Source of the DNA: Chitinophaga caseinilytica
GTDB taxonomy: Bacteria > Bacteroidota > Bacteroidia > Chitinophagales > Chitinophagaceae
Assembly (NCBI RefSeq): GCF_038396765.1
Contig: NZ_CP150096.1
Location: forward strand, 4,757,001 to 4,821,000
Length of the DNA: 64,000 nucleotides
Reading direction: 5' to 3'
The translations under genes were made by a program, and so were the position numbers. The notes under the pieces were generated by a model. It searched no databases. It saw only the letters and a list, made by a program, of their open reading frames with translations, and was not told the DNA's origin. Shown here piece after piece: positions 9,703 to 59,443 of this stretch; position 1 is the stretch's first letter; each line of letters opens with the position of its first letter.

Positions 9703-10038
9703 CTATTCTTCCATCTCTAACAAAAGATCCTGCAAATCGCCATTTAGAGTTTCTCCATCACTTTCTGAAATCAATTGAAAACTTTCCCGCATCTCATTTA
9801 GGTAAGATGAACCATCCAATATGCCAAAAATATGGGATAGTGTATCTACCTGAACCAGGCGCACAAATTGCAATAAGGTACTTTGATCAGATGATGATAA
9901 AGAACTATATAATTTTCTTGTTGCAATCCATAATGGATCTGTCGCGGCTGTCTCGTTGCCTAACGTATTTTCATACCCTTGCATCCCATTGTCAATTACC
10001 TCTCTTTTAATTGCAGTTACAAATTCCAATGCATTCAT
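9703..10038 (-). CDS. Small acidic hypothetical protein
   Basis: 111 residues, acidic and helical (IKREVIDNG, YSSLSSSDQSTLLQFVRLVQVDTLSHIFGILDG, ending DLLLEMEE). No signal peptide or membrane segment. Small acidic helical proteins in AT-rich islands are often immunity proteins, but no toxin gene is adjacent and I do not assign that role. Upstream of the ATG is an A/T-rich stretch without a Shine-Dalgarno site, typical of Bacteroidota. Codon use is AT-biased like its neighbour at 9041-9568. Confidence 0.55.
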   Translation of the reverse strand: MNALEFVTAIKREVIDNGMQGYENTLGNETAATDPLWIATRKLYSSLSSSDQSTLLQFVRLVQVDTLSHIFGILDGSSYLNEMRESFQLISESDGETLNGDLQDLLLEMEE

Positions 10039-15046: not shown

Positions 15047-15085
15047 TCCCGCACGGAGGTTTCGGCTTTTGTGCGGGATTTTTTT
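15047..15085 (+). terminator. Rho-independent terminator of the leucine operon
   Basis: An 8-bp stem TCCCGCAC/GTGCGGGA with a 16-base loop is followed directly by seven T bases. It starts 21 bases after the leuB stop codon. Confidence 0.85.
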
Positions 15086-15095
15086 GTTGGATGGG

Positions 15096-17006: not shown

Positions 17007-17233
17007 ATGTGTTCGTTTCCATCGGTGAAGGGGCCTGCGTTCATTGGTTATTCGGTTTCGTCTGTCAGTAGGTAATATCCATCGTTCTGGGATATGCGTC
17101 GGGGCCCTTTGGTTACTGTTACTGTCACAGCCGGTAAATCAAAAGGGATGCCAGAATTTTAAAACCATCCATGGATAAGGTTTTCATCATCCTACACAGC
17201 TCCTTCCCATACAAATGTAAAGATTTCGCGCAT

Positions 17234-17274
17234 AAAAAAACGACATCGCCGCCGGGTAAGGGCGGGATGTCGTT
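17234..17274 (-). terminator. Terminator of the SusCD/EEP operon
   Basis: On the minus strand the stem AACGACATCCCGCC / GGCGATGTCGTT is followed by a run of seven T bases. It lies about 30 bases after the stop of the endonuclease/phosphatase gene and closes the uptake operon. Confidence 0.85.
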
Positions 17275-17302
17275 TCCAGGGCCTGATTTCCGTTCAGTCC
17301 GG

Positions 17303-18106
17303 TTATTTCACGATCCACTCGGCCACAACGGCCAGGTGGTCTGAAGGGTAAGGTTCGTTGATCACTTCCGTCCGTACGGGCACCCATCCGCTTTTCTTCG
17401 TAGCCAGCACGAAATCGATCACCCTTTTGGGGTTGATGACGGGAATCGTGTAGCCGCAATCGGTACAGGAAGGCCGGTATTTCTCCAGCAATGTGGCAAA
17501 TGCGGGGGTAGACGGCGTGGTGTTGAAGTCGCCGGAAAGCACCAGCGGCAACGCCAACGTGTCTGCCAGGCGGTTCAGGGCGGCCACCTGCTCGTCCCGG
17601 TTGGCAGGAGTACTAACATCGAGGTGGGTACTGCCGATGGTGAGCTTTTTCCCGTTCCGGAAAGTGATGTCGGCCAGGGCTACTACCCGGTCTTCCGCCG
17701 CGGGGTTCGACGTTTCGGGCAACCTGACCGTCCGCCCGTTCTGCAACGGGTACTTCGACAGGATGGCTACGCCGTATTCCCCACCGTCGTGGTCGATGGC
17801 TTTGCCGAAATACACCTGCATACCCGTTTTTTGGGCCAGTAGGGCCGCCTGGTCGATGTTCCCGGAGCGTTGGGTGCGCACGTCCACTTCCTGCAGGGCC
17901 AGCACGTCGGGCTGCTGTGCCCGCACCACGGCGGCAATGGCATCTACGTCGATGAAGCCGGGTTTGGTGGGCGGGTTGCAGTGATGGATGTTATATGTCA
18001 TGACACGGAGCGTATCGCCCATTGCGGCGGGCTTTGGCCCGGGGACGGCCTGCGGGCCGTTTTGCGCGCAGGCTGCCAGGATGAATGCAGATAGTATGAA
18101 TTTCAT
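17303..18106 (-). CDS. Endonuclease/exonuclease/phosphatase-family lipoprotein
   Basis: 267 residues. A short signal sequence ends in the lipobox LAAC (Cys13), so the protein should be anchored in a membrane. The body is a complete EEP-fold hydrolase: TYNIHH, ALQEVD (metal-binding Glu), GSTHLD, SGDFN and the terminal SDHLAV catalytic His/Asp. EEP enzymes cut phosphodiester or phosphate-ester bonds in nucleic acids, lipids or inositol phosphates. It starts 27 bases after the SusD gene, so it belongs to that uptake operon, which suggests a surface enzyme preparing a phosphate-containing nutrient. The exact substrate is not shown by sequence. Confidence 0.9.
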   Translation of the reverse strand: MKFILSAFILAACAQNGPQAVPGPKPAAMGDTLRVMTYNIHHCNPPTKPGFIDVDAIAAVVRAQQPDVLALQEVDVRTQRSGNIDQAALLAQKTGMQVYFGKAIDHDGGEYGVAILSKYPLQNGRTVRLPETSNPAAEDRVVALADITFRNGKKLTIGSTHLDVSTPANRDEQVAALNRLADTLALPLVLSGDFNTTPSTPAFATLLEKYRPSCTDCGYTIPVINPKRVIDFVLATKKSGWVPVRTEVINEPYPSDHLAVVAEWIVK

Positions 18107-18133
18107 GTTATGCGGTCTTTTTCGTCAGTAAGA

Positions 18134-19798
18134 TCATTCCCAGCCCGGGTTTTGCGGCGCCAGGTTCGGGTTCCGCTGGATCTGTAACAGGGGCACTGGG
18201 AAACGGTAATGTTTCGGCGCCACAAACTGGCGGCCGCTCATCACGATGATATACCCTTCGGCGTCGGTCTTGAAATTGGCGACATGGGAAGGCACCAGGG
18301 CGAGGGACTTCTTCATCCCTTTCACGTCTGCCGCCAGCTTGTCCCCTTCTTTCCAGCGTACCATATCGTACCAGCGGCCACCTTCGCGCGCCAGCTCGAT
18401 GCGGCGCTCACGGCGGATCTCCGTGCGCAGGTCCAGCCCATTGGCCGCCAGGAACGACAGCGTCATGGGCATCATGCCCACCCTCTCGCGGAGTTTGTTG
18501 ATGGAATTATCGATATCGCCCTGGGTGAGCTTGCCCTGCTCGAAGCGCGCTTCCGCCCAGGTGAGCAGCACTTCGGCATACCGCAACACGTGAATGTCGT
18601 TGGCATCGCGGGTAACAAGGGCCACTGCGGGGATTTCCACGTATTTGGTGTAATAATACCCGGTGATCGTCACGCAACCCTGCTTGTCGGCCAGGAACTT
18701 CGGCGCGGTGAACGTGGTAATATCGGTATTCTGCGGATTGCCGTCGCGCTTGCCGCCCCATTTGGAGCCCGGCGCCAGGATGGTCATCTTCATGCGGGGA
18801 TCGCGGTTTTCGAAGATGTTGGCGTAGGTATCTTCCTTGTAGGTGGGCGATTGGGTGATGGGAAGCCCGTCAGCACAGAGGTACGCATCCACCAGCGACT
18901 TCGTCGGGTTGTAGCGGCTCGACTGGTCGGGCACCTGCGTTTCGCGGCTGATGTTGTGCATGCTCACGTCCAGCAGGTTGATACGGGCGATGATCGTCTC
19001 CTTGTTGGTGCCGTTGGCGAGTTTTCCTTTCCAGGTGAAGAAGTTGTAATAATCTTCTGCCGGGCGGCCGGTGGAATAAAGCTGGTACACGTTCATGTCC
19101 ATCACCCGCTTGGCCGCGTCTTCCGCATCGGCGAACCTGTCGTCGTACAGCGCCATGCGGGCTTTGAGGGCCAGGGCGGCGCCCTTGTTCATGCGGCCGA
19201 GTTTCGGGCCGGTCATGATGGCCGATTGCATGAGGCCGGCGGCTTCTTCCAGCTCACTGAGAATGAAATCGACGATCTCTTTTTTGGAATTCCTCGGGCC
19301 GTAGAGCTCCGTAATGTTCAGGGGCTCCGTTACCAGTGGCAGATCGCCGAAGTACATCACCAGGTTCATGTACATGTACGCGCGGATGGTTTTGGCCTCT
19401 CCCACCAGCTGGTTCAGCGTAGCTTCTGGCACGCCCTTGGCACGGTGATAGTTGGCCAGAAAAGCGTTACAGTCGCGGATTCCGGAGTATTGGGACACCC
19501 ATTCGGCGTTTACCGAAGACAGATCGGAATCGTAGTTGCCACTGCCGAAAATGCGGTATGCGTCGCTTGTGGAGGAATTGATAGAGTTGTCGCCCATCTG
19601 GTCCATGGCGATGGTATTGTTATTCTTGACGTTGGCGTAGAGCGCGTTGATGGCCAGGGTCAGCTGCTCTTCGTTCTGCCAGAACGTTTCGTCGGAGATC
19701 GCGTCCTGCGGGTTGCGGTCCAGGAAATCCTTACGGCAACCGGTGGCAGTGATAAGCAGGATGGCGGATATGCTGAGAAAAATCCTTTTCATGATCAT
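18134..19798 (-). CDS. SusD/RagB-family nutrient-binding lipoprotein
   Basis: 554 residues. The signal peptide ends in the lipobox TATGC (Cys21), followed by the SusD start RKDFLDRNPQDAISDETFW. TPR-like helices and a conserved C-terminal SusD region (ELAREGGRWYDMVRWKEGD, ...FPVPLLQIQRNPNL) are present. SusD proteins form the surface lid over the SusC barrel and capture the substrate. Its ATG overlaps the SusC stop by 4 bases. Ligand unknown; the downstream EEP lipoprotein points to a phosphate-ester substrate rather than a plain polysaccharide, but this is inference. Confidence 0.93.
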   Translation of the reverse strand: MIMKRIFLSISAILLITATGCRKDFLDRNPQDAISDETFWQNEEQLTLAINALYANVKNNNTIAMDQMGDNSINSSTSDAYRIFGSGNYDSDLSSVNAEWVSQYSGIRDCNAFLANYHRAKGVPEATLNQLVGEAKTIRAYMYMNLVMYFGDLPLVTEPLNITELYGPRNSKKEIVDFILSELEEAAGLMQSAIMTGPKLGRMNKGAALALKARMALYDDRFADAEDAAKRVMDMNVYQLYSTGRPAEDYYNFFTWKGKLANGTNKETIIARINLLDVSMHNISRETQVPDQSSRYNPTKSLVDAYLCADGLPITQSPTYKEDTYANIFENRDPRMKMTILAPGSKWGGKRDGNPQNTDITTFTAPKFLADKQGCVTITGYYYTKYVEIPAVALVTRDANDIHVLRYAEVLLTWAEARFEQGKLTQGDIDNSINKLRERVGMMPMTLSFLAANGLDLRTEIRRERRIELAREGGRWYDMVRWKEGDKLAADVKGMKKSLALVPSHVANFKTDAEGYIIVMSGRQFVAPKHYRFPVPLLQIQRNPNLAPQNPGWE

Positions 19799-46052: not shown

Positions 46053-47525
46053 ATGCAATTTAACAAACGATATATCCTTCCTGCGCTGCTGATCGGCCTT
46101 TCCGCCTGCAGCAGCCTCGACGAACGGCCGCAGTCGCAGCTCGTGACGCAGGAGTTCTATAAAGACGGCGCGCAGGCAGATGCCGCCGTGGTGGCCACTT
46201 ACCGCAAGCTGTACGAAACGGGGCAATCGCTGTACAACAGTCTTTTCCAGATCGGCGTCGAAATGGCGACAGACGATTACGAAGCAGGGCCGCGGGCCAG
46301 GAACGCCCATGTCCGCGCGATTTCCGGCCTTACGCACGACGCCTCCAACGACCGTATGGAGCAGCTCTGGCGCCAGAGTTACGACGCCATCAACGCCGCC
46401 AACATCGCCATCGACCGCATTGCGCTGGTGCCGGAAGGCAAGATCACGGCGGTTTTGCGGGAACGACTGATCAATGAGGCAAAGTTCCTGCGCGCGCTGC
46501 ATTACTTCAATCTCGTGCGCTGGTTCGGCGATGTGCCGATCGTGCTGCATGAACCGAAAGACCTTTCACCCGAAGCGTTATACGTGGCTAAAAGCCCGCA
46601 GGCCGAAGTTTACAACCAGATCATCGCCGACCTTTCATCCGCAGAAAACCTGCCCGCGCCCGGCCAGTACGGTAAAAACGACGTTGGCCGGGCCACTTCG
46701 GGCGCGGCAAAATCACTGTTGTCGAAAGTATACCTCACACAGCAGGACTGGGCCAAAGCCGCGGCCAAAAGCAAGGAAGTGATCGACGCCAATTGGTATG
46801 GACTGTTCGATGACTTCGCGGATGTGTTCAATACGCCGTCCAAAAACGGGAAGGAACATATTTTCTCCGCACAATTCCTCGGCAACGCGGGGTACCAGGG
46901 AAACAGTCTTGCCAGCAGAAGCGCGCCCAACGAAGTCCCCGGCATCAACGGCGACTATGCCGATGCGCTGCACAAACAGGGCAAACTGTACGAAAGCTTC
47001 AGCGACGGCGATACCCGCAAAGCCGTGACGTTCATCACGACGATGGTGAGCCCCACCGACGGAAAAACCTACAATTTCGACCCGCATTTCCATAAATATT
47101 ACGACCCGGCGGTGATCGGCAACCAGGGCCAGTCTTCGAAGAACCTGCCCATTATCCGGTATGCGGAAGTGCTCCTGATCCATGCGGAAGCGGTGAACGA
47201 GCTGAACGGCCCTACTGCGGCGGCTTACGAAGCCATCGACAAAGTGCGTTTACGCGCGCATGTACCGAAGCTCGCCGACGTGGCGCCTTCGCTCAGCGCC
47301 GCGGATTTCCGCGACAGCGTGTTCCAGGAGCGGCGGAAAGAACTGGTGTATGAATACCAGCGATGGTTCGACCTGGTGCGCCGCGGGCCCGACTATTACG
47401 TCAAAACCCTGCGCGCAGCCGGCAAAACGCTCGCCGCGCCCCGGCACATCCGCTTCCCGACGCCGCAGCGGGAGCTGAACCTCAATCCGAAACTGCGGCA
47501 AGACCCATTATGGATTAATAACTGA
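46053..47525 (+). CDS. SusD/RagB-family nutrient-binding lipoprotein
   Basis: 490 residues. The signal peptide ends in the lipobox LSAC (Cys15), followed by SSLDERPQSQLVTQEFYKDG. SusD helices and the C-terminal ERRKELVYEYQRWFDLVRRGPDYY segment are present. It starts 17 bases after the SusC stop. The ligand is presumably sulphated because two sulfatases follow in the same operon; that is inference from neighbours. Confidence 0.93.
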   Translation: MQFNKRYILPALLIGLSACSSLDERPQSQLVTQEFYKDGAQADAAVVATYRKLYETGQSLYNSLFQIGVEMATDDYEAGPRARNAHVRAISGLTHDASNDRMEQLWRQSYDAINAANIAIDRIALVPEGKITAVLRERLINEAKFLRALHYFNLVRWFGDVPIVLHEPKDLSPEALYVAKSPQAEVYNQIIADLSSAENLPAPGQYGKNDVGRATSGAAKSLLSKVYLTQQDWAKAAAKSKEVIDANWYGLFDDFADVFNTPSKNGKEHIFSAQFLGNAGYQGNSLASRSAPNEVPGINGDYADALHKQGKLYESFSDGDTRKAVTFITTMVSPTDGKTYNFDPHFHKYYDPAVIGNQGQSSKNLPIIRYAEVLLIHAEAVNELNGPTAAAYEAIDKVRLRAHVPKLADVAPSLSAADFRDSVFQERRKELVYEYQRWFDLVRRGPDYYVKTLRAAGKTLAAPRHIRFPTPQRELNLNPKLRQDPLWINN

Positions 47526-47533
47526 CGAAAACA

Positions 47534-49168
47534 ATGAAGACGATTTTCCTGTTCGCATGCGCGCTGTTGGCGCTCCTGCCCGCGGCGCACCCGCAAAGCG
47601 CCCGCCGGCCCAACATCATCCTCATCATGGTGGATGACATGGGTTATTCCGACATCGGGCCCTACGGCTCCGAGATCCACACGCCCAACCTCGACCGCCT
47701 GGCACGGGAGGGCCTGAAATTGCGGGAGTTCTATAACAATTCCATCTGCGCCCCTACCCGCGCCTCGCTCATGACCGGGCAATACAACCACCGCGCCGGG
47801 ATCGGATTTTTCGACGTGAACCTGGGATTGCCGGCGTACCAGGGGTATTTAAACCGCTCGTCGCTCACCGTGGCCGAAGTGCTGCAACAATCCGGCTACA
47901 CGACGCTCATGGCCGGCAAGTGGCACGTGGGGAACGATAGTCTTTCCTGGCCCAACCAGCGCGGGTTCGACCGATTCTTCGGGTTCATCGGCGGCGCCAG
48001 CAATTATTACGACATCGGCTCCTACGCAGATAAAGTGCGGCCCGTTACGCTGGTCGAAAACAACAAAACCATCCGCCTGCAACCGGGTCAATATTTGACG
48101 GACGAGATCGCCGGGCATGCGGTGCAGTACCTCGACGAAACCCGCGATTCAAAAAAGCCCTTCTTCCTCTACGTTGCCTACAACGCGCCGCACTGGCCCT
48201 TGCAGGCGCAGCCGGAAGATATCGAAAAGTATAAGGGAAGGTATTCCATCGGATGGGATTCCCTGCGCACACAGCGCATCGCGCGGATGAAGGAACTGGG
48301 CATCATCGCGCCCGGCGCCACGATTGCCACCGATCCGGAAGTGCCGCGATGGGAAAGCCTGACATTCGACGAAAAGAAATTATGGGAAAAGAAGATGGAA
48401 GTTTATGCCGCGATGATCGACCGGCTGGACCAGGGGATCGGTAAAATCCTGAACAAGTTGAAAGAACTGAAGCAAGACGAAAATACGCTCGTCGTTTTCA
48501 TTTCCGACAACGGCGCGCAGGGCGGGTTCATTCCATTTGGAAGGAAGCGCCAGCGGAACAGCGGGCCCATCGGCACTGCGGGCTCTTACGATTACCAGGA
48601 ACAAAGCTGGGCGCACGTTTCGAACACGCCTTTCCGTGCATATAAGGCCACGGCGTATGAAGGCGGCATCAGTTCTCCCCTCATCGCCTGGTTTCCCGGG
48701 AAGATCGCCGCGGGCTCCACGGCGCGGGGGACGGCCCACCTGATCGACCTGGCGCCTACTTTTTACGAAATCGCCGGGGCGAAATACCCTTCCGTGTACA
48801 AGCAGACGCCTTCGTATCCGCTGGCAGGCACCAGTCTGGCCCATCTGTTCTTCGCCCGGCAGGAAATCGACCGGAAGGCGCCCCTGTTCTGGGAACGCGC
48901 CGGCAACCGCGCCGTCCGCAGCGGCAGATGGAAACTCGTATCCGCCTATCCCGCCAATGTTTGGGAATTGTACGACATCGAGACGGACCGTGCCGAGACG
49001 CGGGACCTCGCCGCACAAAACCCGCAATTGGTGACCGAGCTCTCCGCCGCATACGACAAATGGGCCAAAGCCAACGACGTAGTGGAATACGACAAGATCC
49101 GGCCAAGCGGTAATTCCGGGTTCGCCGGCCCTTTCCAGAACCCGCCCGCAACCGGCGGCAGGCGCTAA
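47534..49168 (+). CDS. Type I sulfatase (arylsulfatase family), first copy
   Basis: 544 residues with a signal peptide (residues 1-21). The sulfatase signature C72-A-P-T-R (SICAPTRASLMTG) has the cysteine converted to formylglycine by a maturase, which is not encoded in the window. The metal ligands begin in NIILIMVDDMGYSD, and GKWHVGN and DNGAQGG are present. It removes sulphate esters from carbohydrate or other substrates, in the periplasm. It starts 8 bases after the SusD gene. The next gene is a close paralogue, so the two arose by tandem duplication. Confidence 0.93.
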   Translation: MKTIFLFACALLALLPAAHPQSARRPNIILIMVDDMGYSDIGPYGSEIHTPNLDRLAREGLKLREFYNNSICAPTRASLMTGQYNHRAGIGFFDVNLGLPAYQGYLNRSSLTVAEVLQQSGYTTLMAGKWHVGNDSLSWPNQRGFDRFFGFIGGASNYYDIGSYADKVRPVTLVENNKTIRLQPGQYLTDEIAGHAVQYLDETRDSKKPFFLYVAYNAPHWPLQAQPEDIEKYKGRYSIGWDSLRTQRIARMKELGIIAPGATIATDPEVPRWESLTFDEKKLWEKKMEVYAAMIDRLDQGIGKILNKLKELKQDENTLVVFISDNGAQGGFIPFGRKRQRNSGPIGTAGSYDYQEQSWAHVSNTPFRAYKATAYEGGISSPLIAWFPGKIAAGSTARGTAHLIDLAPTFYEIAGAKYPSVYKQTPSYPLAGTSLAHLFFARQEIDRKAPLFWERAGNRAVRSGRWKLVSAYPANVWELYDIETDRAETRDLAAQNPQLVTELSAAYDKWAKANDVVEYDKIRPSGNSGFAGPFQNPPATGGRR

Positions 49169-49188
49169 TCTTCCCTTAAACATCCAAC

Positions 49189-50817
49189 ATGAAAAAATAT
49201 CTGATTTCTCTGGCGGTAGTCTTGCAAGCGGCGCCGCTCTTCGCCCAAAGTCAGCCTAAAAAACCGAATATCATCCTCATCATGGTCGATGACATGGGCT
49301 ATTCCGACCTGGGCAGTTATGGTTCCGAGATCCGTACGCCTAACCTGGACCGGCTGGCCAAAGAAGGGCTGCGGCTGCGGGAATTCTACAATAATTCCAT
49401 CTGTGCCCCTACCCGCGCCTCGCTCCTCACGGGGCAATACCAGCACAAGGCCGGCGTCGGATATTTCGACGTCAACCTCGGGCTGCCGGCGTACCAGGGT
49501 TTCCTGAACCGGCAAAGCCTCACCATCGGCGAAGTGCTCCGTCAAAACGGGTACAGCACTTTGCTTTCCGGGAAATGGCATGTGGGGAACGACAGTACTT
49601 CCTGGCCCGTGCAGCGCGGCTTCGACCGGTTCTTCGGCGTGATCGGCGGCGGCGCCAACTATTTCGATCCCGAACCGATGCCGCTGGGCGGCCGCGCCTA
49701 CCCGGTGGTGCTGCTGGAAAACAACCGGCGCATCAAACCCGCCGCCGGCAGTTATTATTTTACGGATGAGATCACCCGCCACGCAGTGGATTTCCTCGAT
49801 GAACAGCACAAATCCGGCAAACCGTTCTTCCTCTACCTTGCCTACACCGCGCCACACTGGCCGCTGCAGGCACTTCCGGAAGATATCGCCAAATACAAAG
49901 GCCGGTACGACATCGGCTGGGATTCCCTCCGCAGTGAGCGCCTCGCCCGCCAGCGCCAGCTGGGGCTTTTGCCGGCCGGTCAAACCATCGCCCCGCGCGA
50001 TTCCTCCGTTCCCGATTGGGACAACCTGACCTTCGACCAGCAACAGTTATGGAAAGCGAAGATGGAAGTTTTCGCGGCGATGGTTGACCGGATGGACCAG
50101 GGCGTGGGACAGGTGCTCACCAAACTGAAAGCCCTCGGCGCAGACGACAACACGCTGATCGTCTTCATCTCCGACAACGGAGCGCCTGCGGAAGACGTGG
50201 CCCATTTCGGGCAGAAAGCCGGGCGGAATTCCGGGCCGGTAGGCACCGCGGGATCGTTCGAATCGCAGGGCAAGAATTGGTCGTTCGTGTCGAACTCCCC
50301 GTTCCGGGCGTTCAAGAACAATATGTACGAAGGCGGCATTAGCAGTCCTTTCATCGCCTGGTTCCCCGGCAAGGTGCCGCAGGGCGCCATTGCAAAGGGG
50401 ACGGGCCATCTGATCGACCTTGCGCCCACGTTTTACGAGATCGCCGGGGCAAAGTACCCGTCTACTTTCAACGGCACTACCCCCAATAAGCTGGCGGGCG
50501 TGAGCCTGGCGGGTTTGTTATTCAACAACCGCGAGATCGACCCGGAGCGGCCCATCTTCTGGGAGCGCGCGGGCAACAGGGCCGTCCGCAAAGGGAAATG
50601 GAAACTCGTTTCCGGCTATCCGCAATACCGCTGGGAACTGTACGACCTAGAAAAAGACCGTGGGGAAACCATCGACGTGGCGCAGCAAAACCGCCAGGTG
50701 GTCAACGAACTGTCTGCCGCCTATTTCCAATGGGCGGAACAGACGGGCGTGGTGCCTTACGACCAGATAAAACCGGCTTCCGTTTTCGGGAACCCGCCCG
50801 CCCGGCAAAGCAGGTAA
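49189..50817 (+). CDS. Type I sulfatase, second copy
   Basis: 542 residues with signal peptide, and C72 in SICAPTRASLLTG at the same position as in the upstream paralogue. Long stretches are identical or nearly so (NIILIMVDDMGYSD, GSEI, REFYNNSICAPTRASL, GKWHVGNDS). Differences cluster in the substrate-pocket loops (for example ANYFDPEPMPLGG against SNYYDIGSYADK), suggesting each cuts a different sulphate position. Last gene before a strong terminator. Confidence 0.93.
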   Translation: MKKYLISLAVVLQAAPLFAQSQPKKPNIILIMVDDMGYSDLGSYGSEIRTPNLDRLAKEGLRLREFYNNSICAPTRASLLTGQYQHKAGVGYFDVNLGLPAYQGFLNRQSLTIGEVLRQNGYSTLLSGKWHVGNDSTSWPVQRGFDRFFGVIGGGANYFDPEPMPLGGRAYPVVLLENNRRIKPAAGSYYFTDEITRHAVDFLDEQHKSGKPFFLYLAYTAPHWPLQALPEDIAKYKGRYDIGWDSLRSERLARQRQLGLLPAGQTIAPRDSSVPDWDNLTFDQQQLWKAKMEVFAAMVDRMDQGVGQVLTKLKALGADDNTLIVFISDNGAPAEDVAHFGQKAGRNSGPVGTAGSFESQGKNWSFVSNSPFRAFKNNMYEGGISSPFIAWFPGKVPQGAIAKGTGHLIDLAPTFYEIAGAKYPSTFNGTTPNKLAGVSLAGLLFNNREIDPERPIFWERAGNRAVRKGKWKLVSGYPQYRWELYDLEKDRGETIDVAQQNRQVVNELSAAYFQWAEQTGVVPYDQIKPASVFGNPPARQSR

Positions 50818-50840
50818 CGATTGCGACCGGGCACATCCTG

Positions 50841-50882
50841 CGGCCTGCTTCCCCCGGCAACGGGCGGAGGCAGGCCGTTTTT
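50841..50882 (+). terminator. Rho-independent terminator of the sulfatase operon
   Basis: An 8-bp stem CGGCCTGC/GCAGGCCG followed by five T bases, 24 bases after the second sulfatase stop. The remaining 253 bases to the CHAT gene hold a TATTTTTA element near 50905 and nothing else I could recognise. Confidence 0.85.
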
Positions 50883-51135: not shown

Positions 51136-54100
51136 ATGTCTATCAACGAATTGCATCTATACGGCACCCGCCGCCCCGCTTCCGCCGATGTACCGGGGCT
51201 TTCTCACCTGGCCAGTTTCCAGCTAAGTGGCGCAGAGCGCGGCACGCAGGAAGAACACACGGTCCCCGTAACGGAGGAGCACATCCTCGCCATTACGCTC
51301 GACGACGACACCATCTGGTATTGCGACCCCGCGCAACTGGAGTCGCTGTTTCCCGGAACGGCCGTCCAGCAGCGCGGCGGGACAGCAGTGTACCGCTTCC
51401 CCGGCACGCTGACCACCGATCTTCCCGAACGCGGCGCCATGCCCATGCTGGCGGTCAAATTGCTGGAGGTTTTCGTCAAGAAAGCCGCTGCGCCGGTTAT
51501 CCGCGACCTCGCCGGCGAACTGGAAGACCGGCAGACCAATGGCCAATATGGGTTGCTGCCGGCCGGCGACGATCTGCTTTTGACAGCCGCATCGTTGCCG
51601 GAAGGAGAAACCGCGCCTTACCTGCTTTTCATCCACGGCACGGCCTCCAGTTTCGCCGGAGCATTCGGCGATCTCCGGGACACCGACACCTGGAAGAGCC
51701 TCCGCAAGATGTACGGGCCGCGGATATTGGCCTATCAGCACCGGACGCTCACGCTGTCGCCCCTCCAGAATGTGACGGAGCTGGCCCAACAATTGCCTGA
51801 TGGCGCAGACCTGCATATCGTGACCCATTCGCGGGGCGGGCTCCTCGGCGATATCCTCGCCCGCTATTCCGCAGAAGGGAAAAAAGTAGGTTTTCATGCC
51901 GTCGAAAAGGAGTACCTCCGCAAACACGACCGCACGGCCGACCTTGCCGCCATCGCTTCCCTCGATGAAATTTTCCGGCACAAAAATCTTCGTATATCCA
52001 AAATAGTTAGAGTAGCATGCCCTGCCAGCGGCACTTTGCTGGCATCGCGGCGGCTGGACCATTATTTCAACGTGATCCTGAACCTGTTGGGGCTCGCAAC
52101 CGGCTTCCATCCGGTATTCCAGGCGTTCAAAGCTTTGCTGGGCGCGCTGGTGGCGGCTAAAGGCGATCCGGAATCGTTGCCGGGCCTGGAAGCACAACAG
52201 CCCGCATCGCCTTTCATCCGCGCGCTGAACAATCCCGGGCCGGAAACGCTGATCGATTCGCCGTTGTTCGTTATTTCGGGGATCAGCCGGATCAGTGCGG
52301 GCTGGCGCGGACTGGCGGCTATTCTGGGGAAACTGTATTTCCGTTCCGGGAACGACCTGGTGGTGGATACCGCTTCCATGTACAACGGCGCGCGCCGGGT
52401 GCCGCAGCGGGTACAGTATTTCCTGGACCAGGGCGCGAACGCCAGTCATTTCAACTATTTCTTCAACAACGGTTCCGCCTCCGCGCTATTGCTGGCCCTC
52501 CAATCGGACGGTGAAGGAACGGTTGCCGGGTTCAATACGGGCGCGCAGATGGCAGGAGATGCGCTGCGTACCGGCGTGGCGGCGGGCGGAAAGCTCGTCC
52601 GCGACCAGGTTTCCGGCAGCAGGCCGGTGGTCCTCCTCGTGCCGGGGCTGCTGGGCAGTTGGCTGGGCAACGGCCAAAAAACGCTCTGGCCCGATTACAG
52701 GGAATTGCTGGAAGGCGGGCTCACGGAGCTTTCCATGGATAATAAAACCATCGTGGCAGAGGCCCTCCCCGCTTCTGCCTACACCGAACTGGCCGATGCG
52801 CTCCTCACTTCGCACGACGTGCTGACTTTCCCTTACGACTGGCGCCGCTCGCCGGTGGAAACAGGCGCGTTGCTCGCCGAAAAAGTGAACGTGCTCCTGC
52901 AGGCCGGGCTGCGCGTGCAGCTCCTCGCGCATGGCACGGGCGGCCTGCTCGTCCGTGAACTGACCTACCGCCATCCGGACACCTGGAAGGCTTTGCGCGC
53001 GCAGGGAGGATGCAGTGCGTTGCTGCTGGGAAGTCCGCTGGGCGGCACTTACCGCATTCCGCAGATGCTCTTCGGGGAAGATGCGGTGATCCGCCAGCTC
53101 GCGGGTCTCGATCTCCATCATTCCACCGCCGAGCTCACCGCAGTGTTTGCGGGCCTCCCCGGCCTGATGTGCCTTCTTCCCTTTTCCACGGCCATTGCCG
53201 ATTATGCCGATCCCGCGGCGTGGGAAGCATTGCGCATCGCACTGAAACATCCCGACTGGCCGGTGCCGTCGGGCGAAAACTTGCAGCTTTTCGCGCAGTA
53301 CCGGGAGGATGTAGGTTCCGGCATGGAACATGCCGATGCGAGCGGTATCGCGTTCATCGCCGGACAATCGCCCGCCGGGCGCCTCACGCCGGACGGGCAC
53401 CGCATCGAGCCGGACGGACGGCTCACCTTTACCGGGACCCCGGCCGGCGACGGCAGCGCGCCCTGGGCCGACAGCATCCCGGCTTACCTGCAAAAAAACG
53501 GGCAGGTATATTTCACCGATGTTCCCTACGGCGCCCTTCCCTGCGACAAACGGCTCTTTACGGCCATCCGGGAAATCCTGGGCACGGGCGCTACCACGCT
53601 GTTGCGCACCGAACCGCCCGTTAGCAGGGGCATCGGGAAAAGTCAACCCCAGAAAGCCGCACTGTCTTTCGGATTATCGCCCGAAAACCTGGAACGCTCC
53701 ATGCTGGGGCTTCCGCAGGATACCGTTTACCGCGAAGGCGCGGTGCCCGTTACCATCACGCTCAGTAACGGCGACTGTAAATTTGCGGCGCACCCGGTGT
53801 TGGTGGGGCATTTCCTGAACGATGGCCTCTTTTCCGCCGAAAAATCCATCAACAGGTACCTGCAGGGCGAACTGGCGCGGAGGCACGGCCTGGGCCTATA
53901 CCCCGGCGAAACGGGCACGAGCGAAACCTTCATCGTGGAAAAACCAGCACCGTTCAAAGGCGCCATCATTACGGGTTTGGGAAAACAGGGGGAATTGACG
54001 CCATGGCTCCTGGCGCAAACCGTGGAAAAATCCATCCTGAAATATTTGTCGATTTTCAATAGTCCGATAGCCGTTCCGGAATCCGTAGCTACGAACAAAC

Positions 54101-56427
54101 GTACCGTGGGCATCAGCGCCCTGGCGATCGGCTGCGGATATGGCGGATTAAGCATCGAAAGTTCCGTGCGCGCGGTCATCGCAGGGGTGCAGGCCGCGAA
54201 CGATAAAATCCGGGATAATTACGACAATGCCATTACCGTCGGCGAAATAGAATTCATCGAGATGTACCGCGACCGGGCGATGAGCTGCTTCATGGCCATC
54301 AACCACATCGCGGAAGAGGAAAAGCAGCAATTGCATATCCTGTGGAAGAACAGGACGATCGTGAAGCGCCCCGGCAGCAGGGAACGCATGCTGATCGACA
54401 ATAACAGCGACTGGTGGACGCGCATCCAGGTGCGGCAGATGGAAGACGGCGACACGGGCGACGGGTCGGGCGCGTTGCGCTTCACCATGTCTACCGACGC
54501 AGCGCGGGAAGAAGAGCGCATCCTGCATATTTCACGAAGCGGGCTGCAATCGTTGCTCAATACCATGAGCGGGCAAAACCGCTGGAACCCGCAGCTCGCC
54601 AAGTCCATGTTCGAAATGCTGATCCCCAACGATTTTAAGGAGCAGGTGAAACGGCAGAGCAACATCAACTGGATCGTAGACACCGAAACCGCCGCATATC
54701 CCTGGGAACTGTTGCAGGACGCGCTTTCCGACGCATTGCCACTCAGTGTGAACGCCGGCATGGTGCGCCAGCTCGCCACGCGCGACTACCGCATCCGCAT
54801 CAATCCCGTCGTGGCGCGGACGGCGCTCATCGTGGCCGATCCCGATCTCAAGGAAGCATTCAGCCAACTGCCGGGCGCGCGGCACGAGGGGGCCAAGGTG
54901 CAACAGCTCCTCGAAGCGCAGGACTACAACACCTGGCCCTTGCTCAACGCATCCGACGCAGACATCCTTTCCACCCTCTTCGCCCGCGACTACAAGATCA
55001 TCCATCTCGCCGGCCATGGCGTCTTCGACCCGGAAAATTATCTCAAAAGCGGCATGCTCATCGGTCCGGACGCCTGTCTCAACACCACCCATCTCCACCA
55101 AATCCCCACCGTTCCCGAGTTCGTGTTCGTGAACTGCTGTTTCCTCGGTGAAATGGACAGCGGAGCCGAAGCCCGCTACCAGCAAAGATATCAGCTCGCC
55201 GCCAACTTCGGGACGCAACTGATCAACAACGGCGTACGCGCCGTGATCGTAGCGGGATGGGCGGTAGACGACGCGGCCGCGCTCGATTTTACGGAGAAAC
55301 TATATGGAGAATTGTTCGAAGGAAATAATTTCGGGGATGCGGTGAAAGCCGCACGCCGCCACATTTTCGATTTGCATGGCCACCGCACCAACACCTGGGG
55401 TGCCTACCAGTGCTACGGCGATCCTTTCTATGTGATGGAGCCCCGTGGCAGCGCACGGCAAACATACGGACAGTTCCTCCTGGCAGACGATGCGGAGATC
55501 ATGCTGTCGAACATCCTCAGCGCGCTTGACCTTGGCGACGGCGATCCGCAATACACGCTCCGGCAGGTGGAAGATATTTGCAGGCGGGTGGATGAAAACA
55601 ATATCCGCACATCCGCCATTACCGAGCTGGAAGCCTTGCTTTACGCGAGCCTCCGGCAATACGGCCCCGCCATCCAGCTATTCACCCAACTACTGCAGGC
55701 CGAAGCGGCCAACTTTTCCGGCGCTACGGTGGAGCGCTACTGCGCCGTGCGGCTCGCCCATCTTATGCAGCAATACCAATCGGACGCTGCGCTCAAAACC
55801 GACCCCGCACAACGCGAAACCTTCATTGCGCAAACGGACCGCATCATCAGCGACATCGTTTTCCTGCGGAACATGGGCGCCACTTCGGAAAGGCTGCACC
55901 TGCTCGGCGGCGCATACAAACGGAAGGCCTACCTCAGCGAAGGCAAAGCGAAGAAAGCCGCCTACCGCGCATCCGCCGATTGCTACCGCGACGCCGCCAA
56001 TATGAACACCAACGGCACCAAAACGTATAGCCTTTCCTGTTATTACCTGCTGCAAAACGCACTTTCACTTGCCGGCGCGCAGGGCCCGGCGAAAGAACTT
56101 GCCGAATCGGAGCTGAAACAGGCGCTGGACGCACATCGCCAGCATCCCGTCGATCTGCTCGACGGACAGGCTTACCGGCATCTCGTTACGGAAGGGCACC
56201 TGCTGTTGGGGCTGCATCTTTTGCACCCCACCAGCCAATCGTTCCGGGAAGCGGAAACCGTTTACCAGTCGGCCGCCAGGCAGCCGGCGCACCCGGTGAT
56301 GAAACAGGCGGATGCGGGCGTGTTCGAGTTTATAGACGATGTATTGTCGCTCGCGGGCAAAAACCGGCTCGCCCGCGCGGAAAAAGCGCGGGAAGCGTTG
56401 CGGTCGCTGCGGGAGCTGATGCCGTAG
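51136..56427 (+). CDS. Giant CHAT-protease protein with two alpha/beta-hydrolase modules and TPR helices
   Basis: 1763 residues, no signal peptide, so cytoplasmic. In order: an N-terminal lipase-like DUF7379-type domain (about 100-420) with oxyanion HGTASS and nucleophile S232 (VTHSRGG); a second LCAT-like hydrolase (about 490-830) with LVPGLLGSWLGN, in which the nucleophile position reads LAHGTGG, so Gly600 replaces Ser; a region with an aminopeptidase-N-domain-like core (about 868-1010, HPVLVGHF, GLYPGETGTSE, GAIITGLG); a CHAT caspase-like protease (about 1176-1432) with H1294 (LAGHG) and C1335 (VNCC); and a TPR-like tail (1440-1763). CHAT proteins with sensor or effector modules occur in bacterial defence and cell-death systems, which is the likely but unproven context. 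It stands alone with a terminator upstream. Confidence 0.88.
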   Translation: MSINELHLYGTRRPASADVPGLSHLASFQLSGAERGTQEEHTVPVTEEHILAITLDDDTIWYCDPAQLESLFPGTAVQQRGGTAVYRFPGTLTTDLPERGAMPMLAVKLLEVFVKKAAAPVIRDLAGELEDRQTNGQYGLLPAGDDLLLTAASLPEGETAPYLLFIHGTASSFAGAFGDLRDTDTWKSLRKMYGPRILAYQHRTLTLSPLQNVTELAQQLPDGADLHIVTHSRGGLLGDILARYSAEGKKVGFHAVEKEYLRKHDRTADLAAIASLDEIFRHKNLRISKIVRVACPASGTLLASRRLDHYFNVILNLLGLATGFHPVFQAFKALLGALVAAKGDPESLPGLEAQQPASPFIRALNNPGPETLIDSPLFVISGISRISAGWRGLAAILGKLYFRSGNDLVVDTASMYNGARRVPQRVQYFLDQGANASHFNYFFNNGSASALLLALQSDGEGTVAGFNTGAQMAGDALRTGVAAGGKLVRDQVSGSRPVVLLVPGLLGSWLGNGQKTLWPDYRELLEGGLTELSMDNKTIVAEALPASAYTELADALLTSHDVLTFPYDWRRSPVETGALLAEKVNVLLQAGLRVQLLAHGTGGLLVRELTYRHPDTWKALRAQGGCSALLLGSPLGGTYRIPQMLFGEDAVIRQLAGLDLHHSTAELTAVFAGLPGLMCLLPFSTAIADYADPAAWEALRIALKHPDWPVPSGENLQLFAQYREDVGSGMEHADASGIAFIAGQSPAGRLTPDGHRIEPDGRLTFTGTPAGDGSAPWADSIPAYLQKNGQVYFTDVPYGALPCDKRLFTAIREILGTGATTLLRTEPPVSRGIGKSQPQKAALSFGLSPENLERSMLGLPQDTVYREGAVPVTITLSNGDCKFAAHPVLVGHFLNDGLFSAEKSINRYLQGELARRHGLGLYPGETGTSETFIVEKPAPFKGAIITGLGKQGELTPWLLAQTVEKSILKYLSIFNSPIAVPESVATNKRTVGISALAIGCGYGGLSIESSVRAVIAGVQAANDKIRDNYDNAITVGEIEFIEMYRDRAMSCFMAINHIAEEEKQQLHILWKNRTIVKRPGSRERMLIDNNSDWWTRIQVRQMEDGDTGDGSGALRFTMSTDAAREEERILHISRSGLQSLLNTMSGQNRWNPQLAKSMFEMLIPNDFKEQVKRQSNINWIVDTETAAYPWELLQDALSDALPLSVNAGMVRQLATRDYRIRINPVVARTALIVADPDLKEAFSQLPGARHEGAKVQQLLEAQDYNTWPLLNASDADILSTLFARDYKIIHLAGHGVFDPENYLKSGMLIGPDACLNTTHLHQIPTVPEFVFVNCCFLGEMDSGAEARYQQRYQLAANFGTQLINNGVRAVIVAGWAVDDAAALDFTEKLYGELFEGNNFGDAVKAARRHIFDLHGHRTNTWGAYQCYGDPFYVMEPRGSARQTYGQFLLADDAEIMLSNILSALDLGDGDPQYTLRQVEDICRRVDENNIRTSAITELEALLYASLRQYGPAIQLFTQLLQAEAANFSGATVERYCAVRLAHLMQQYQSDAALKTDPAQRETFIAQTDRIISDIVFLRNMGATSERLHLLGGAYKRKAYLSEGKAKKAAYRASADCYRDAANMNTNGTKTYSLSCYYLLQNALSLAGAQGPAKELAESELKQALDAHRQHPVDLLDGQAYRHLVTEGHLLLGLHLLHPTSQSFREAETVYQSAARQPAHPVMKQADAGVFEFIDDVLSLAGKNRLARAEKAREALRSLRELMP

Positions 56428-56429
56428 GA

Positions 56430-56840
56430 TCAGGCTTTTTTGGAGCGCATGGCTTTGGTGTGCTCGAGTGCCGGGTCATTGCGGAAGCAGTCGTATTCCG
56501 GGGTGCCTTTGGCGTAGATGGCGATGCGGCCCTGTTCGTCGTAATGGATGCCCCAACCATAGCGTTTTCCCAACGGGGAAGCGCGGAGACAGGCGCGGCC
56601 CTTCTGGAAATATTCGGTACGGGCATCTTTGCGGGCCTGGCCGGCGAGACCTTCCTTATCGGCGTACTGGTTGAAAATGATATCGTCGGAAGTGTATTTG
56701 TAGGGATGGGCGATGATCATATCGAACTGATAGGACGCTACGGTGATTTTGTCGCCCTTGGCCTGGGGGATTTCCCCTTCCGCTACCGGACAATCTTCCG
56801 CTACTTCGATAAACGTATTGATGTAGTTGGTTGTTTTCAT
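56430..56840 (-). CDS. DUF6157-family hypothetical protein
   Basis: 136 residues from the ATG at 56840 (MKTTNYINTFIEVAEDCPV); an ATG 18 codons upstream lies close to the promoter and is not preferred. The opening plus GDKITVASYQFDMIIAHPYKYTSDDIIF match DUF6157 proteins, small cytoplasmic proteins of unknown role found widely in bacteria. It converges on the CHAT gene with 2 bases between stops, so a shared terminator would lie inside the other gene. Confidence 0.7.
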   Translation of the reverse strand: MKTTNYINTFIEVAEDCPVAEGEIPQAKGDKITVASYQFDMIIAHPYKYTSDDIIFNQYADKEGLAGQARKDARTEYFQKGRACLRASPLGKRYGWGIHYDEQGRIAIYAKGTPEYDCFRNDPALEHTKAMRSKKA

Positions 56841-56891
56841 GGATGCATCGTTTGAAACGGGTATAAGTCGGACTGAAATCTTTCTGGACAT

Positions 56892-56899
56892 CAAAAATA
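56892..56899 (-). promoter_or_regulatory. TAnnTTTG -7 element of the DUF6157 gene
   Basis: TATTTTTG on the minus strand, a full -7 match, about 50 bases before the ATG at 56840. It supports that start codon. No clear -33 TTG seen. Confidence 0.4.
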
Positions 56900-56927
56900 A
56901 ATTTACGTCGCCGTTTGCTGAAATGGA

Positions 56928-58202
56928 TTACTTCCACCGCCCGAACTTCGGGTGATGGATGCGTTGCGAGGAATATATACCGGCGTGGCCGCTGCAAAAA
57001 TAAGCCATGAGGCAAGCCACGCCAAAGTACACCACATTGTCTGCGCCGAATAGTTCGATGCCCATGAGCGTGCAGGCGATGGGCGTATTCGTTGCGCCGG
57101 CGAACACGGCGATGAAGCCCAGTGCGGCGAGCAGGTCTACCGGCGCCCCGGTATACAGCGCAATGGTGTTGCCGAGCGTGGCCCCGATGAAAAAGAGCGG
57201 TGTCACTTCTCCCCCTTTGAACCCCATCCCCAGCGTCACCACGGTAAAAACGAGTTTCCACAGCCAGCTGAATTGGTCGACGCCGCCTTCCTTAAATGCG
57301 TTCACGATGGAAATGCCTGCCGGATGTTGTGCGATAACGCCCAACCCGATATAATCCTCCGTTCCCGCGATAAAAACAAGTGCGATCACGATACAGCCGC
57401 CCACGAACGGCGTCAGCCAGGGCGTTTTCACGAATATTTTGCCGGACATGTTTTTCAATGCGTGCATGGCCCAGGAAAACAGCCGGCCGGCAAACCCGAA
57501 AGCCGCGCCTGCAACGATGGTGATGCCGAGCAACTGCCAATTGAACGCTTCACTGAAATGGATGGCGTAATGCGTATGGGTGGCGCCCCAGAGCCGGCAA
57601 ACCTGGTCAGACAAGTACGCCGCGAGGAGGCAGGGCAAAAGGGCTTTGAAATCGCGCAATTTGTTATTCCCGATCGCCAGCACTTCCAGGGCAAATACCG
57701 CACCTGCGATGGGCGTTCCGAATACCGCGCCGAACCCGCCGGCGATCCCCATCATGAGGACGACCCGCGTATCTTCTTCGTCCAGCTTCATCCACCGGCC
57801 GATCCTCGACGCCAGGCTGCCGCCCATTTGAACGGCCGTTCCCTCGCGCCCGGCGGAGCCGCCGAACAGGTGGGTCACGAGCGTGGTGAGCAGCACGAGC
57901 GGCGTCATCCGCAGCGGCACACCGCCGCCGGGCTCATGGATTTCGTCGATAATGAGGTTGTTGCCGCCGGCGGAATTTTTCCCGAACTGGTGATACAGCC
58001 ACCATATGCCGATCCCTGCCAGTGGCAGCAGGTACAGCAGCCAGGGATTTTCCCAGCGGGTTTCCGTTACAGCATCCAATGAAATGAGGAACAAGGCCAC
58101 GGCCGATCCGGTGAAAAGCGACACGGGCAGGGCGATGAGCGCAAAATAGGCGAAGTAAAACCTGGAGTGGAAAACGTCGATGGGAGAATTTGAATCGTTC
58201 AT
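56928..58202 (-). CDS. CLC-type antiporter, probably fluoride/proton (CLC-F)
   Basis: 424 residues with about ten or more membrane helices. CLC landmarks are GREGTAVQMGG, where the glutamate is the gating residue, GGFGAVFGTPIAG, and KGGEVTPLFFIGATLG. In place of the chloride-type GSGIP loop it has GGNNLIIDE; the Asn at the anion-contact Ser position fits the fluoride-exporting CLC-F branch as I recall it. The strong support comes from a fluoride riboswitch upstream. It would pump fluoride out in exchange for protons, lowering cytoplasmic fluoride. Length and motifs are intact. Confidence 0.9.
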   Translation of the reverse strand: MNDSNSPIDVFHSRFYFAYFALIALPVSLFTGSAVALFLISLDAVTETRWENPWLLYLLPLAGIGIWWLYHQFGKNSAGGNNLIIDEIHEPGGGVPLRMTPLVLLTTLVTHLFGGSAGREGTAVQMGGSLASRIGRWMKLDEEDTRVVLMMGIAGGFGAVFGTPIAGAVFALEVLAIGNNKLRDFKALLPCLLAAYLSDQVCRLWGATHTHYAIHFSEAFNWQLLGITIVAGAAFGFAGRLFSWAMHALKNMSGKIFVKTPWLTPFVGGCIVIALVFIAGTEDYIGLGVIAQHPAGISIVNAFKEGGVDQFSWLWKLVFTVVTLGMGFKGGEVTPLFFIGATLGNTIALYTGAPVDLLAALGFIAVFAGATNTPIACTLMGIELFGADNVVYFGVACLMAYFCSGHAGIYSSQRIHHPKFGRWK

Positions 58203-58204
58203 AC

Positions 58205-58248
58205 CTACAAATAGTTTAACATCCGGCCGAAGCCGTCAATATTTGCAG
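58205..58248 (-). promoter_or_regulatory. Expression-platform hairpin masking the CLC start
   Basis: On the minus strand CTGCAAATA (58240-58248) can pair with TATTTGTAG (58205-58213), which lies 2 bases before the ATG; the inner part also pairs (TTGAC with GTTAA, GGC with GCC around a TTCG loop). The stem begins at the end of the riboswitch pseudoknot, so fluoride binding could compete with it and free the start codon. Control would then be translational. Confidence 0.6.
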
Positions 58249-58299
58249 GCGCCATCAGCTGCGAAGCAGCGGTTTGGGTCAGGAAGACACCATTTCCTG
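58244..58299 (-). ncRNA. Fluoride riboswitch (crcB motif)
   Basis: On the minus strand AGGAAATGGTGTCTTCCTG forms P1 (AGGAA/TTCCT). After CCCAAACC comes a P3 stem GCTGC-TTC-GCAGC, then TGATGGCGCC. The pseudoknot pairs GGTGTC (58286-58291) with GGCGCC (58248-58253) through G-C and G-U pairs. The order P1, loop, AAAC, P3, CTGATGG and closing strand matches the fluoride riboswitch, and it lies 41 bases upstream of the CLC start. It would raise expression when fluoride is present. Confidence 0.85.
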
Positions 58300-58346
58300 T
58301 TTTGATGGCTGCAAGGTAAGCAATAATTCATTGCCTGTCAAGCGCA

Positions 58347-58380
58347 GCGCCGCCGCCCGCGAATCGGCGGACGGCGGCGC
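58347..58380 (-). terminator. Hairpin downstream of the flavin oxidoreductase gene
   Basis: GCGCCGCCG/CGGCGGCGC with a 16-base loop, 20 bases past the stop codon at 58400. It lacks a T-run, so it may stop transcription inefficiently or simply protect the 3' end. Confidence 0.45.
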
Positions 58381-58399
58381 CTTATTCCCGTTGATATTT

Positions 58400-59443
58400 T
58401 CAGGATTTCGTTTTGCCGAGGGCTTCGCGCACGGCGGGCGCCACGCGCGTTCCGAACAGCTCGATGCAGCGCAGTACTTTTTCCGGCTCGATGTAGCCTT
58501 TTACGAGCTGGCCGAGGAAACGGGTATGGCCGAAGAGCTTGTGCTGGTGGAGGATCTTGTCCACCACTTCCTGCACGCTGCCCACGAAGAGCGGGCCATC
58601 GGGTAAACGGAGGTATTCGAATTGTTCGCGGGTGATGGGCTGCCAGCCGCGGTCGAGGCCCACGCGGTTCATAAGCGCCTCGTACGAAGGCCAGAATTCA
58701 TCGGCCGCCTGGTCGGAATCTTCCGAGATATACATTTGGCTGTTGATACCGAATTGCAGTTTGGACAGGTCGTGCCCGGCTTCTTCCGCCGCTTTTTTAT
58801 AGAGGTTCATGAAAGGGACGAACTGTGCGGGGCGCCCGCCCAGAATGGCCACGATGAGCGGCAGCCCCAGCTTTCCGGCCCTGACGGCGGATGCGGGCGT
58901 GCCACCCGCGGCGATCCATACGGGCAGTGAAGATTGATATGGCCGGGGATATACGCCCCGGTTGGTGACCGGCGCGCGGTATTTCCCTTTCCAGGTGAGG
59001 GTTTCGTTTTCGTTGATCTCCAGCAGCATCTGGAGTTTTTCGATGAACAGCTGATCATAATCGCTCAGACTGAACCCGAACAGCGGGAACGATTCCGTGA
59101 ACGAGCCACGGCCCGCCATGATCTCCGCACGGCCGCCGGAAATGAGGTCGAGCGTGGCGAAGTTCTGGAACGTGCGCACGGGATCGGCGGAACTAAGCAC
59201 GGTTACCGAGCTGGTGAGCCGGATATGCTCCGTTACGGAAGCAATGCCGGCAAGGGCTACTTCGGGCGCGGAAATGATAAAGTCCGGGCGATGGTGCTCG
59301 CCCAGGGCGAACACGTCGAGTCCTGTCTGGTCGGCCATGCGCGCTTCCGCGATGAGTTCCTGCATGGCGAGGAAAGATGCGCGGGCGCCGCCGCTCACAC
59401 CTTCCGGTCTGATTTCTCCGAATGAGCTGATTCCTAATTCCAT
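58400..59443 (-). CDS. LLM-class flavin-dependent oxidoreductase
   Basis: 347 residues. The luciferase-like TIM-barrel start MELGISSFGEI is followed by LAMQELIAEARMADQTGLDVFALGEHH and LTSSVTVLSSADPVRTFQNFATLDLISGGRAEIMAGRG, which is typical of the bacterial luciferase-like family. It uses reduced FMN or F420-like flavin with oxygen to oxidise small substrates. A TATTTTTG element about 18-25 bases before the ATG supports its start. Single-gene unit. The substrate is unknown. Confidence 0.9.
   Translation of the reverse strand: MELGISSFGEIRPEGVSGGARASFLAMQELIAEARMADQTGLDVFALGEHHRPDFIISAPEVALAGIASVTEHIRLTSSVTVLSSADPVRTFQNFATLDLISGGRAEIMAGRGSFTESFPLFGFSLSDYDQLFIEKLQMLLEINENETLTWKGKYRAPVTNRGVYPRPYQSSLPVWIAAGGTPASAVRAGKLGLPLIVAILGGRPAQFVPFMNLYKKAAEEAGHDLSKLQFGINSQMYISEDSDQAADEFWPSYEALMNRVGLDRGWQPITREQFEYLRLPDGPLFVGSVQEVVDKILHQHKLFGHTRFLGQLVKGYIEPEKVLRCIELFGTRVAPAVREALGKTKS

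Follow-up and report, generated by a model that had tools for sequence, protein, structure and literature searches.

TIR enzymes produce NAD-derived signals, and Burroughs and Aravind are said to have proposed in 2020 that the TPR-S domain is a sensor of such signals and a module of ASK1. According to the available part of PMC12847820, type IV Thoeris employs a caspase-like protease activated by N7-cADPR, and ThsA effectors, which have a macro domain, oligomerise and bind both ADPR and nucleotides related to it (available part of PMC11204291). The TPR part of Csx29 switches its CHAT protease allosterically (PMC10028731, in the part available), and in VMAP conflict systems, as far as the accessible text of PMC7159879 goes, a caspase domain is always accompanied by an alpha/beta-hydrolase gene.

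The window, a 64,000-nucleotide stretch of DNA from Chitinophaga caseinilytica, contained a gene for a CHAT protein that also carries a DUF7379 hydrolase. Its features and surroundings were as follows.

46053..50817, + strand: upstream neighbours outside the system, a SusD-like protein and two sulfatases (polysaccharide-use genes; Pfam)
50840..50882, + strand: intrinsic terminator-like hairpin 3′ of the upstream sulfatase gene (inverted repeat; fold −36.3 kcal/mol, z −5.5)
51136..56427, + strand: whole gene DUF7379-LCAT-macro-CHAT-TPR-S, 1763 aa (open frame; Pfam; full-length homologues)
51136..51585, + strand: N-terminal beta-rich region, residues 1-150, of low conservation (model secondary structure; mean identity 28% vs 114 others)
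51586..52545, + strand: first alpha/beta hydrolase, DUF7379, residues 151-470 (AlphaFold models and PDB comparison)
51829-51831, 52354-52356 and 52447-52449, + strand: first-hydrolase triad, Ser232, Asp407 and His438
52597..53631, + strand: second alpha/beta hydrolase, LCAT/lysosomal PLA2 type, residues 488-832 (AlphaFold models and PDB comparison)
52933-52935, 53449-53451 and 53527-53529, + strand: second-hydrolase sites, Gly600 (nucleophile position), Asp772 and Tyr798 (His position)
53740..54336, + strand: macro-like domain, residues about 869-1067, predicted nucleotide sensor (AlphaFold models and PDB comparison)
54595..55422, + strand: CHAT caspase-like protease, residues 1154-1429
55015-55017 and 55138-55140, + strand: CHAT dyad, His1294 and Cys1335
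55480..56424, + strand: TPR-S-like helical domain, residues 1449-1763, akin to the ASK1 central regulatory region (AlphaFold models and PDB comparison)
56430..59443, − strand: downstream neighbours DUF6157, CLC channel and luciferase-like monooxygenase (Pfam; synteny)

Type IV Thoeris resembles this family in that a caspase-superfamily protease is genetically linked to TIR NADases; compared with its effector as given in the citing description (Rousset 2025, cited in the available part of PMC12847820), the protease here is a CHAT that shares its 1763-aa chain with two hydrolases and a macro-like domain, and in most cases no TIR gene is linked to it. Type II ThsA likewise has a macro-fold domain in a TIR-linked effector, but it is a TM-macro protein (PMC11204291, available part), whereas the macro-like domain here was fused to a protease and hydrolases and Pfam named no transmembrane domain in the window protein. 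In Thoeris a TIR gene stands in the operon of the effector or adjoins it. No TIR gene adjoined the window gene, and therefore the system was not filed as Thoeris; one did so beside a minority of relatives.

TPR-CHAT/Csx29 (Craspase) and SAVED-CHAT share the CHAT fold and dyad, and Csx29 also has a helical sensor region. Unlike in these, the TPR-S domain was C-terminal to CHAT, no SAVED domain was found in the Pfam scan of the window protein, and no CRISPR gene was present among its scanned neighbours. VMAP pairs also match a caspase-superfamily protease with an alpha/beta hydrolase, but there a separate, neighbouring gene encodes the hydrolase within MoxR-vWA ternary systems (PMC7159879, available part), whereas here both are fused. 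Relatives share, in their second hydrolase, both fold and nucleophile elbow with LCAT/group XV phospholipase A2 and the T6SS lipase Tle4; the domain differs in being fused to a protease and sensors and, in the clade of the window, in having lost Ser and His. Described TPR-S systems resemble the window protein in its putative TPR-S domain, but here this is joined with DUF7379, LCAT and macro-like domains. This combination was not found in the literature searched (few subscription journals covered), and no paper in it, most subscription journals lying outside, came up for DUF7379, the TPR-S domain or CHAT-TPR-S by name.

Domain layout and genomic setting

A preliminary description had read the gene as one 1763-residue protein with two hydrolases, an aminopeptidase-N-like region, a CHAT protease and TPR-like helices. 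The open frame, Pfam and full-length homologues confirmed a real ORF, and AlphaFold models with PDB comparison bore out both alpha/beta hydrolases (residues 151-470 and 488-832), the CHAT fold (1154-1429) and the helices, a candidate TPR-S domain (Pfam PF20308), but replaced the aminopeptidase-N-like part by the macro-like domain (869-1067). A chain of sensor, protease and hydrolase in one polypeptide was supported. The CHAT domain scored 93.9 bits (Pfam cut-off 24) and matched the caspase/separase fold. DUF7379 scored 109.2 bits (cut-off 33) with its triad intact, and the second hydrolase passed the LCAT/group XV PLA2 fold comparison and Pfam cut-off but lacked the Ser-Asp-His triad. NCBIfam gave no family match for the protein at E 1.

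The macro fold was matched by the predicted structure of residues about 869-1067, and this likeness was structural. Sequence similarity was weak (a sub-threshold M17_N-like match, E 0.0017-0.0049), and the best PDB profile match was a LAP (E 0.5); LAP N-domains have the same fold. In our alignment the loop residues H892/D896/E902 were not conserved in the Azotobacter relative, and Y1002-G1003-G1004 as such was absent from all four proteobacterial relatives. Three homologues of 1895-1919 aa (P0012, P0070 and P0094) carried an extra YEATS/pYEATS domain in the precomputed Pfam list, and thus the family also admits another sensor-type module.

As first described, the gene stood alone behind a terminator (the strong terminator-like hairpin at 50840..50882, which closes a SusD-sulfatase operon), and the three genes directly downstream were on the opposite strand. 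Its examined neighbours were metabolic and syntenic in its clade, with no defence island, and no TIR gene was present among the 10 neighbours scanned. When eight window proteins were searched with PADLOC, one neighbour matched an oxidoreductase model and six matched none; for the giant CHAT protein no strong match to a known defence system was obtained, the best being BovA at E 0.0026. Two further CHAT proteins were seen in the genome (G000:C1:5739672-5740118 and 3230012-3230464, in frames of 717 and 636 aa).

Catalytic residues and selection on the second hydrolase

A search gave 1147 homologues at E ≤ 0.001, and the best 120 of these were aligned with the window protein (121 rows). In this alignment Ser232, Asp407, His438, His1294 and Cys1335 were invariant (121/121), so that the first hydrolase keeps its Ser232, as stated earlier, within a complete triad. 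Asp772 was also kept in 121/121. Ser600 and His798 were present in 114 of the 114 proteins outside a seven-member Chitinophaga group, all seven of which had Gly at 600 and Tyr at 798. Among genome loci, 76/80 had Ser600 and His798 and 4/80 (L016, L017, L018 and L022) had Gly and Tyr; the protein and locus sets overlap, since P0005, P0028, P0034, P0038, P0064 and P0071 are identical to L018, L041, L020, L023, L032 and L076. Three full-length proteobacterial relatives, on plasmids of Paracoccus, Azotobacter and Ensifer, had a complete second-hydrolase triad and kept all eight catalytic positions.

A profile of the second-hydrolase domain aligned position 600 with the LCAT nucleophile motif, and its Asp and His were assigned from conservation and from their location after late strands of the model. 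The Ser600 to Gly and His798 to Tyr changes, as far as these alignments go, are confined to one Chitinophaga clade (hereafter the dead clade), in which the second hydrolase is predicted to be catalytically dead. The clade retained the DWR motif and Asp772, and the Met beside the lost Ser was replaced by Thr (Thr601). The preliminary description had noticed the missing nucleophile; the His was lost as well. The design as such nevertheless does not include a dead module, since the triad at this place is intact in relatives from two phyla.

In an 87-row tree, obtained by a short search and flagged for long branches and uneven composition (the dead-clade rows being among the latter), the seven dead-clade rows formed one side of a branch (SH-aLRT 100, length 0.83), and the loss of Ser600 and His798 maps to this single branch. 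Columns conserved to 95% or more across the 188 rows outside the clade were then compared, the incomplete L074 and L093, which have no Ser232 column, being excluded. Seventeen such columns were altered in every one of the 11 dead-clade rows, which represent 10 distinct sequences. These comprised 14 of 79 columns in the second hydrolase vs 3 of 168 elsewhere (Fisher P 1.4e-5). Without residues 833-862 and 1436-1439 the count was 14/16, the extra column of the 17 lying outside the second hydrolase. Seven other clades had at most two such changes each in the second hydrolase, the dead-clade stem being longer than those of the other clades compared.

For the same six dead-clade pairs dN/dS was 0.096-0.181 in the second hydrolase vs 0.083-0.150 in the first, with dS near saturation in several pairs. 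A live pair gave 0.167 vs 0.141; for a second live pair, L030/L032, saturation in the second hydrolase left no ratio to report. The CHAT domain, at 0.02-0.08, was under strong purifying selection. Since dN/dS was still constrained within the dead clade, the data fit a second hydrolase retained as a pseudoenzyme rather than a decaying module, and it probably scaffolds or binds a ligand.

Distribution of the family and its gene neighbours

A match was found in 19/79 genomes of the genus and, at E 1e-50, in 6/395 sampled genomes of the phylum, including the window's own. Five of these six matched over most of the length; the sixth (G073) had a 1065-aa frame from the second hydrolase to CHAT, two matched pieces being read as one frame. 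Hydrolase-free versions (883-1038 aa), which begin anywhere from 0 to about 140 residues ahead of the macro-like domain, occurred in four genus genomes. Eight plasmid records, all proteobacterial, held relatives with 28-31% identity (E 1e-30), and phage records gave no match at E 1e-20. The dead version adjoined the DUF6157, CLC and luciferase-like genes at one site and in the same order in 6/6 intact dead-clade genomes, and no copy was present at 24 other CLC loci (about 1.5 kb of flank per side). The dead version looks vertically kept in its subclade, and the family outside it is patchily distributed. One copy closely related to the dead clade (G485:C1:2940431-2945076) was split into several frames, possibly by sequencing error, in a 65%-complete single-contig assembly.

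A conserved operon partner was rejected, as clustering of neighbours gave none that was family-wide. The two widest clusters each occurred in 14/81 sets (80 loci and the window) at scattered positions, clusters mostly at one adjacent position reached at most 7 sets, and 51/75 copies with both neighbours called had no same-strand neighbour within 100 bp.

TIR genes near the family gene were counted in flanks of up to 10 kb a side at 80 loci, with an HMM seeded by two TIR neighbours that Pfam had confirmed. Twelve lay within 2.5 kb, in 11/80 loci, and 6, 3 and 1 lay in the next three 2.5-kb bins; only 13/80 loci had a TIR gene anywhere in the flanks. The genome-wide rate was taken from a PF13676 search of 74 genomes (loci L020, L024, L026, L053, L072 and L090 left out), which gave 247 matches in 401.6 Mb, or 0.62 per Mb. 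Against this, the density in the four bins was 32, 18, 9 and 3.4 per Mb with growing distance; the detectors near the gene and genome-wide differ, which was judged unable to yield a 50-fold difference. A TIR gene within 2.5 kb was observed at 10/74 loci vs 0.2 expected from genome-specific rates, and 20,000 simulations never gave more than 4, the null being random placement, with general defence-gene clustering outside it. Nine of the 10 near TIR genes coincided with PF13676 matches (by coordinate conversion, the same contig being assumed), and the tenth, at L037, was a Pfam match.

The neighbours were varied: nSTAND1 and TIR genes (L037), an LRR-Roc-TIR gene (L075), a TIR-nSTAND-LRR gene (L071), smaller TIR proteins that have no STAND domain according to Pfam (L064, L081 and L084) and, at L080, a protein whose SLOG-type match is marginal. 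In G488, outside the 74 loci, an FRG gene and then a TIR gene were found beside the family gene, the TIR gene being two genes away. G030 is the genome of L030, and thus its TIR neighbour is no second case. A relative consisting only of macro, CHAT and TPR-S parts, on a Rhizobium plasmid, had a TIR-nSTAND-WD40 gene on either side, separated from it by one small gene in one direction and two in the other; the Paracoccus and Azotobacter plasmid copies had no annotated TIR gene within 7 kb. The Azotobacter copy (L165, 6731-12118) lay on a mobilizable plasmid among restriction-modification genes, a recombinase and transposases.

The defence link suggested in the preliminary description has a footing in TIR, TIR-STAND and LRR-Roc-TIR neighbours of a minority of relatives, but not at the window copy, whose examined neighbours are metabolic. 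Two findings together were to count against that description: Ser at 600 in homologues, which the alignment showed, and the lack of any link to defence loci among them, which was not borne out. Its "self-contained" device is doubtful, because clustering of TIR signal-makers with the gene in relatives means that the protein would need a partner.

The single PF13676 match in the window genome was an LRR-Roc-COR-TIR gene (1161 aa, G000:C1:1700645-1704124, L163:5643-9128) about 3.1 Mb from the window gene. At E 1e-60 it was found in 5/79 genus genomes (the window's, three others of the dead clade and G481), among them 4/6 intact dead-clade genomes. As a dedicated partner it was set down as suggestive only, the genomes being close kin and 2/6 intact dead-clade genomes lacking it.

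A PADLOC search covered 122 of 124 selected adjacent proteins, from 67/81 sets (near-duplicate clades and the window left out). It matched 112 models vs 9 among 89 proteins six genes away, a figure set aside as a defence-island statistic because many of the 112 came from two SNF2-type proteins. By our own HMM seven of the 122 were TIR proteins, six of them passing the Pfam cut-off and L025, at 22.8 bits, falling short of it. The CHAT gene of L034 was flanked by a response-regulator gene (9457-9870) and a gene for a 1340-aa SNF2 protein resembling ZorD/DpdE (15048-19070); L042 had a 1339-aa downstream gene (15093-19112), and in L110 a response-regulator gene (4244-4657) lay 5′ of a hydrolase-free version. 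In Muriicola a separate Peptidase_C14 caspase gene was directly 3′ of the CHAT gene (L068:15587-16402).

A candidate mechanism and its alternatives

We favour, with a probability of about 0.55, the reading that the protein is an immune or cell-death effector gated by a TIR-made NAD-derived signal, similar in logic to a Thoeris effector. The signal, binding site, substrates, self-cleavage and any effect on phage are all putative in the following scheme. A TIR-bearing sensor of the invader (TIR-STAND, LRR-Roc-COR-TIR or a small TIR protein) would make an NAD-derived nucleotide, which would be bound by the macro-like domain, the TPR-S domain or both. The CHAT protease would then be switched on allosterically and cut cellular proteins; it may also cut its own chain, freeing or unleashing the N-terminal hydrolases. 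These would attack lipids or another ester and so harm the infected cell, and in the window's Chitinophaga clade this last step would fall to the first hydrolase alone.

About one chance in five is left to activation of a defence effector by direct contact with a STAND/Roc sensor or by a phage protein, no nucleotide being involved and the TIR neighbours draining NAD in parallel. TPR domains often bind protein, and nSTAND1 neighbours occur in L037, L071 and the Rhizobium plasmid. Csx29, in complex with Cas7-11 and target RNA, is activated via its TPR domain (PMC10028731, available part). Such contact would leave the macro-like domain unexplained, and it does not account for the gene being adjoined by TIR proteins without a Pfam STAND domain (L064, L081 and L084).

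Slightly less probable is a domesticated housekeeping role in the window's clade (controlled proteolysis, lipid turnover or developmental lysis), immunity having been abandoned and the second lipase lost along the way. The one shared site in 6/6 intact genomes, the metabolic neighbours and the low CHAT dN/dS speak for it. It is opposed by the patchy, TIR-enriched distribution of the remaining family, by the fully conserved first-hydrolase and CHAT centres, and by the LRR-Roc-COR-TIR gene in 4/6 dead-clade genomes, although these are close relatives.

Defence genes cluster, and the TIR association might be such clustering and the function of the protein unrelated, which we consider improbable. 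TIR density still stood at 3.4 per Mb at 7.5-10 kb, neighbours of the SNF2/ZorD-DpdE-like and response-regulator kinds were also present, and no single PADLOC family, TIR included, matched more than 2/122 adjacent proteins. On the other hand, TIR enrichment was highest right beside the gene and 7/122 adjacent proteins were TIR, a comparison that is uneven in that other defence families were counted only by PADLOC models at E 1e-8. Least credible by far is a second hydrolase still active through another residue such as Thr601: Asp772 and DWR persist and Thr stands beside the lost Ser, but neither Ser nor His is left, Thr601 lies one residue away from where the nucleophile should be, and 14/17 clade-wide changes at conserved columns sit in this domain.

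More tentatively than the NAD-gated effector itself, we suggest that the family may be an undescribed branch of TIR signalling, a single-chain protease gated by an NAD signal and with two built-in lipases. It would be modular enough to allow the hydrolase-free macro-CHAT-TPR-S versions seen in Chitinophaga and Rhizobium, and in one Chitinophaga lineage a lipase would have become a pseudoenzyme and the gene would have settled in the core genome, its product acting together with an LRR-Roc-COR-TIR sensor encoded at an unlinked locus. If true, three immune themes that otherwise stand apart (TIR/NAD signals, macro-fold sensing and caspase-like proteolysis) would be joined with lipid hydrolysis in one chain. 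Gene neighbourhood here links TIR enzymes to the TPR-S module of bacteria, which has a fold like that of the ASK1 regulatory region. Versions with two live lipases, with a dead second one and with none occur naturally, so that the contribution of each module can be probed.
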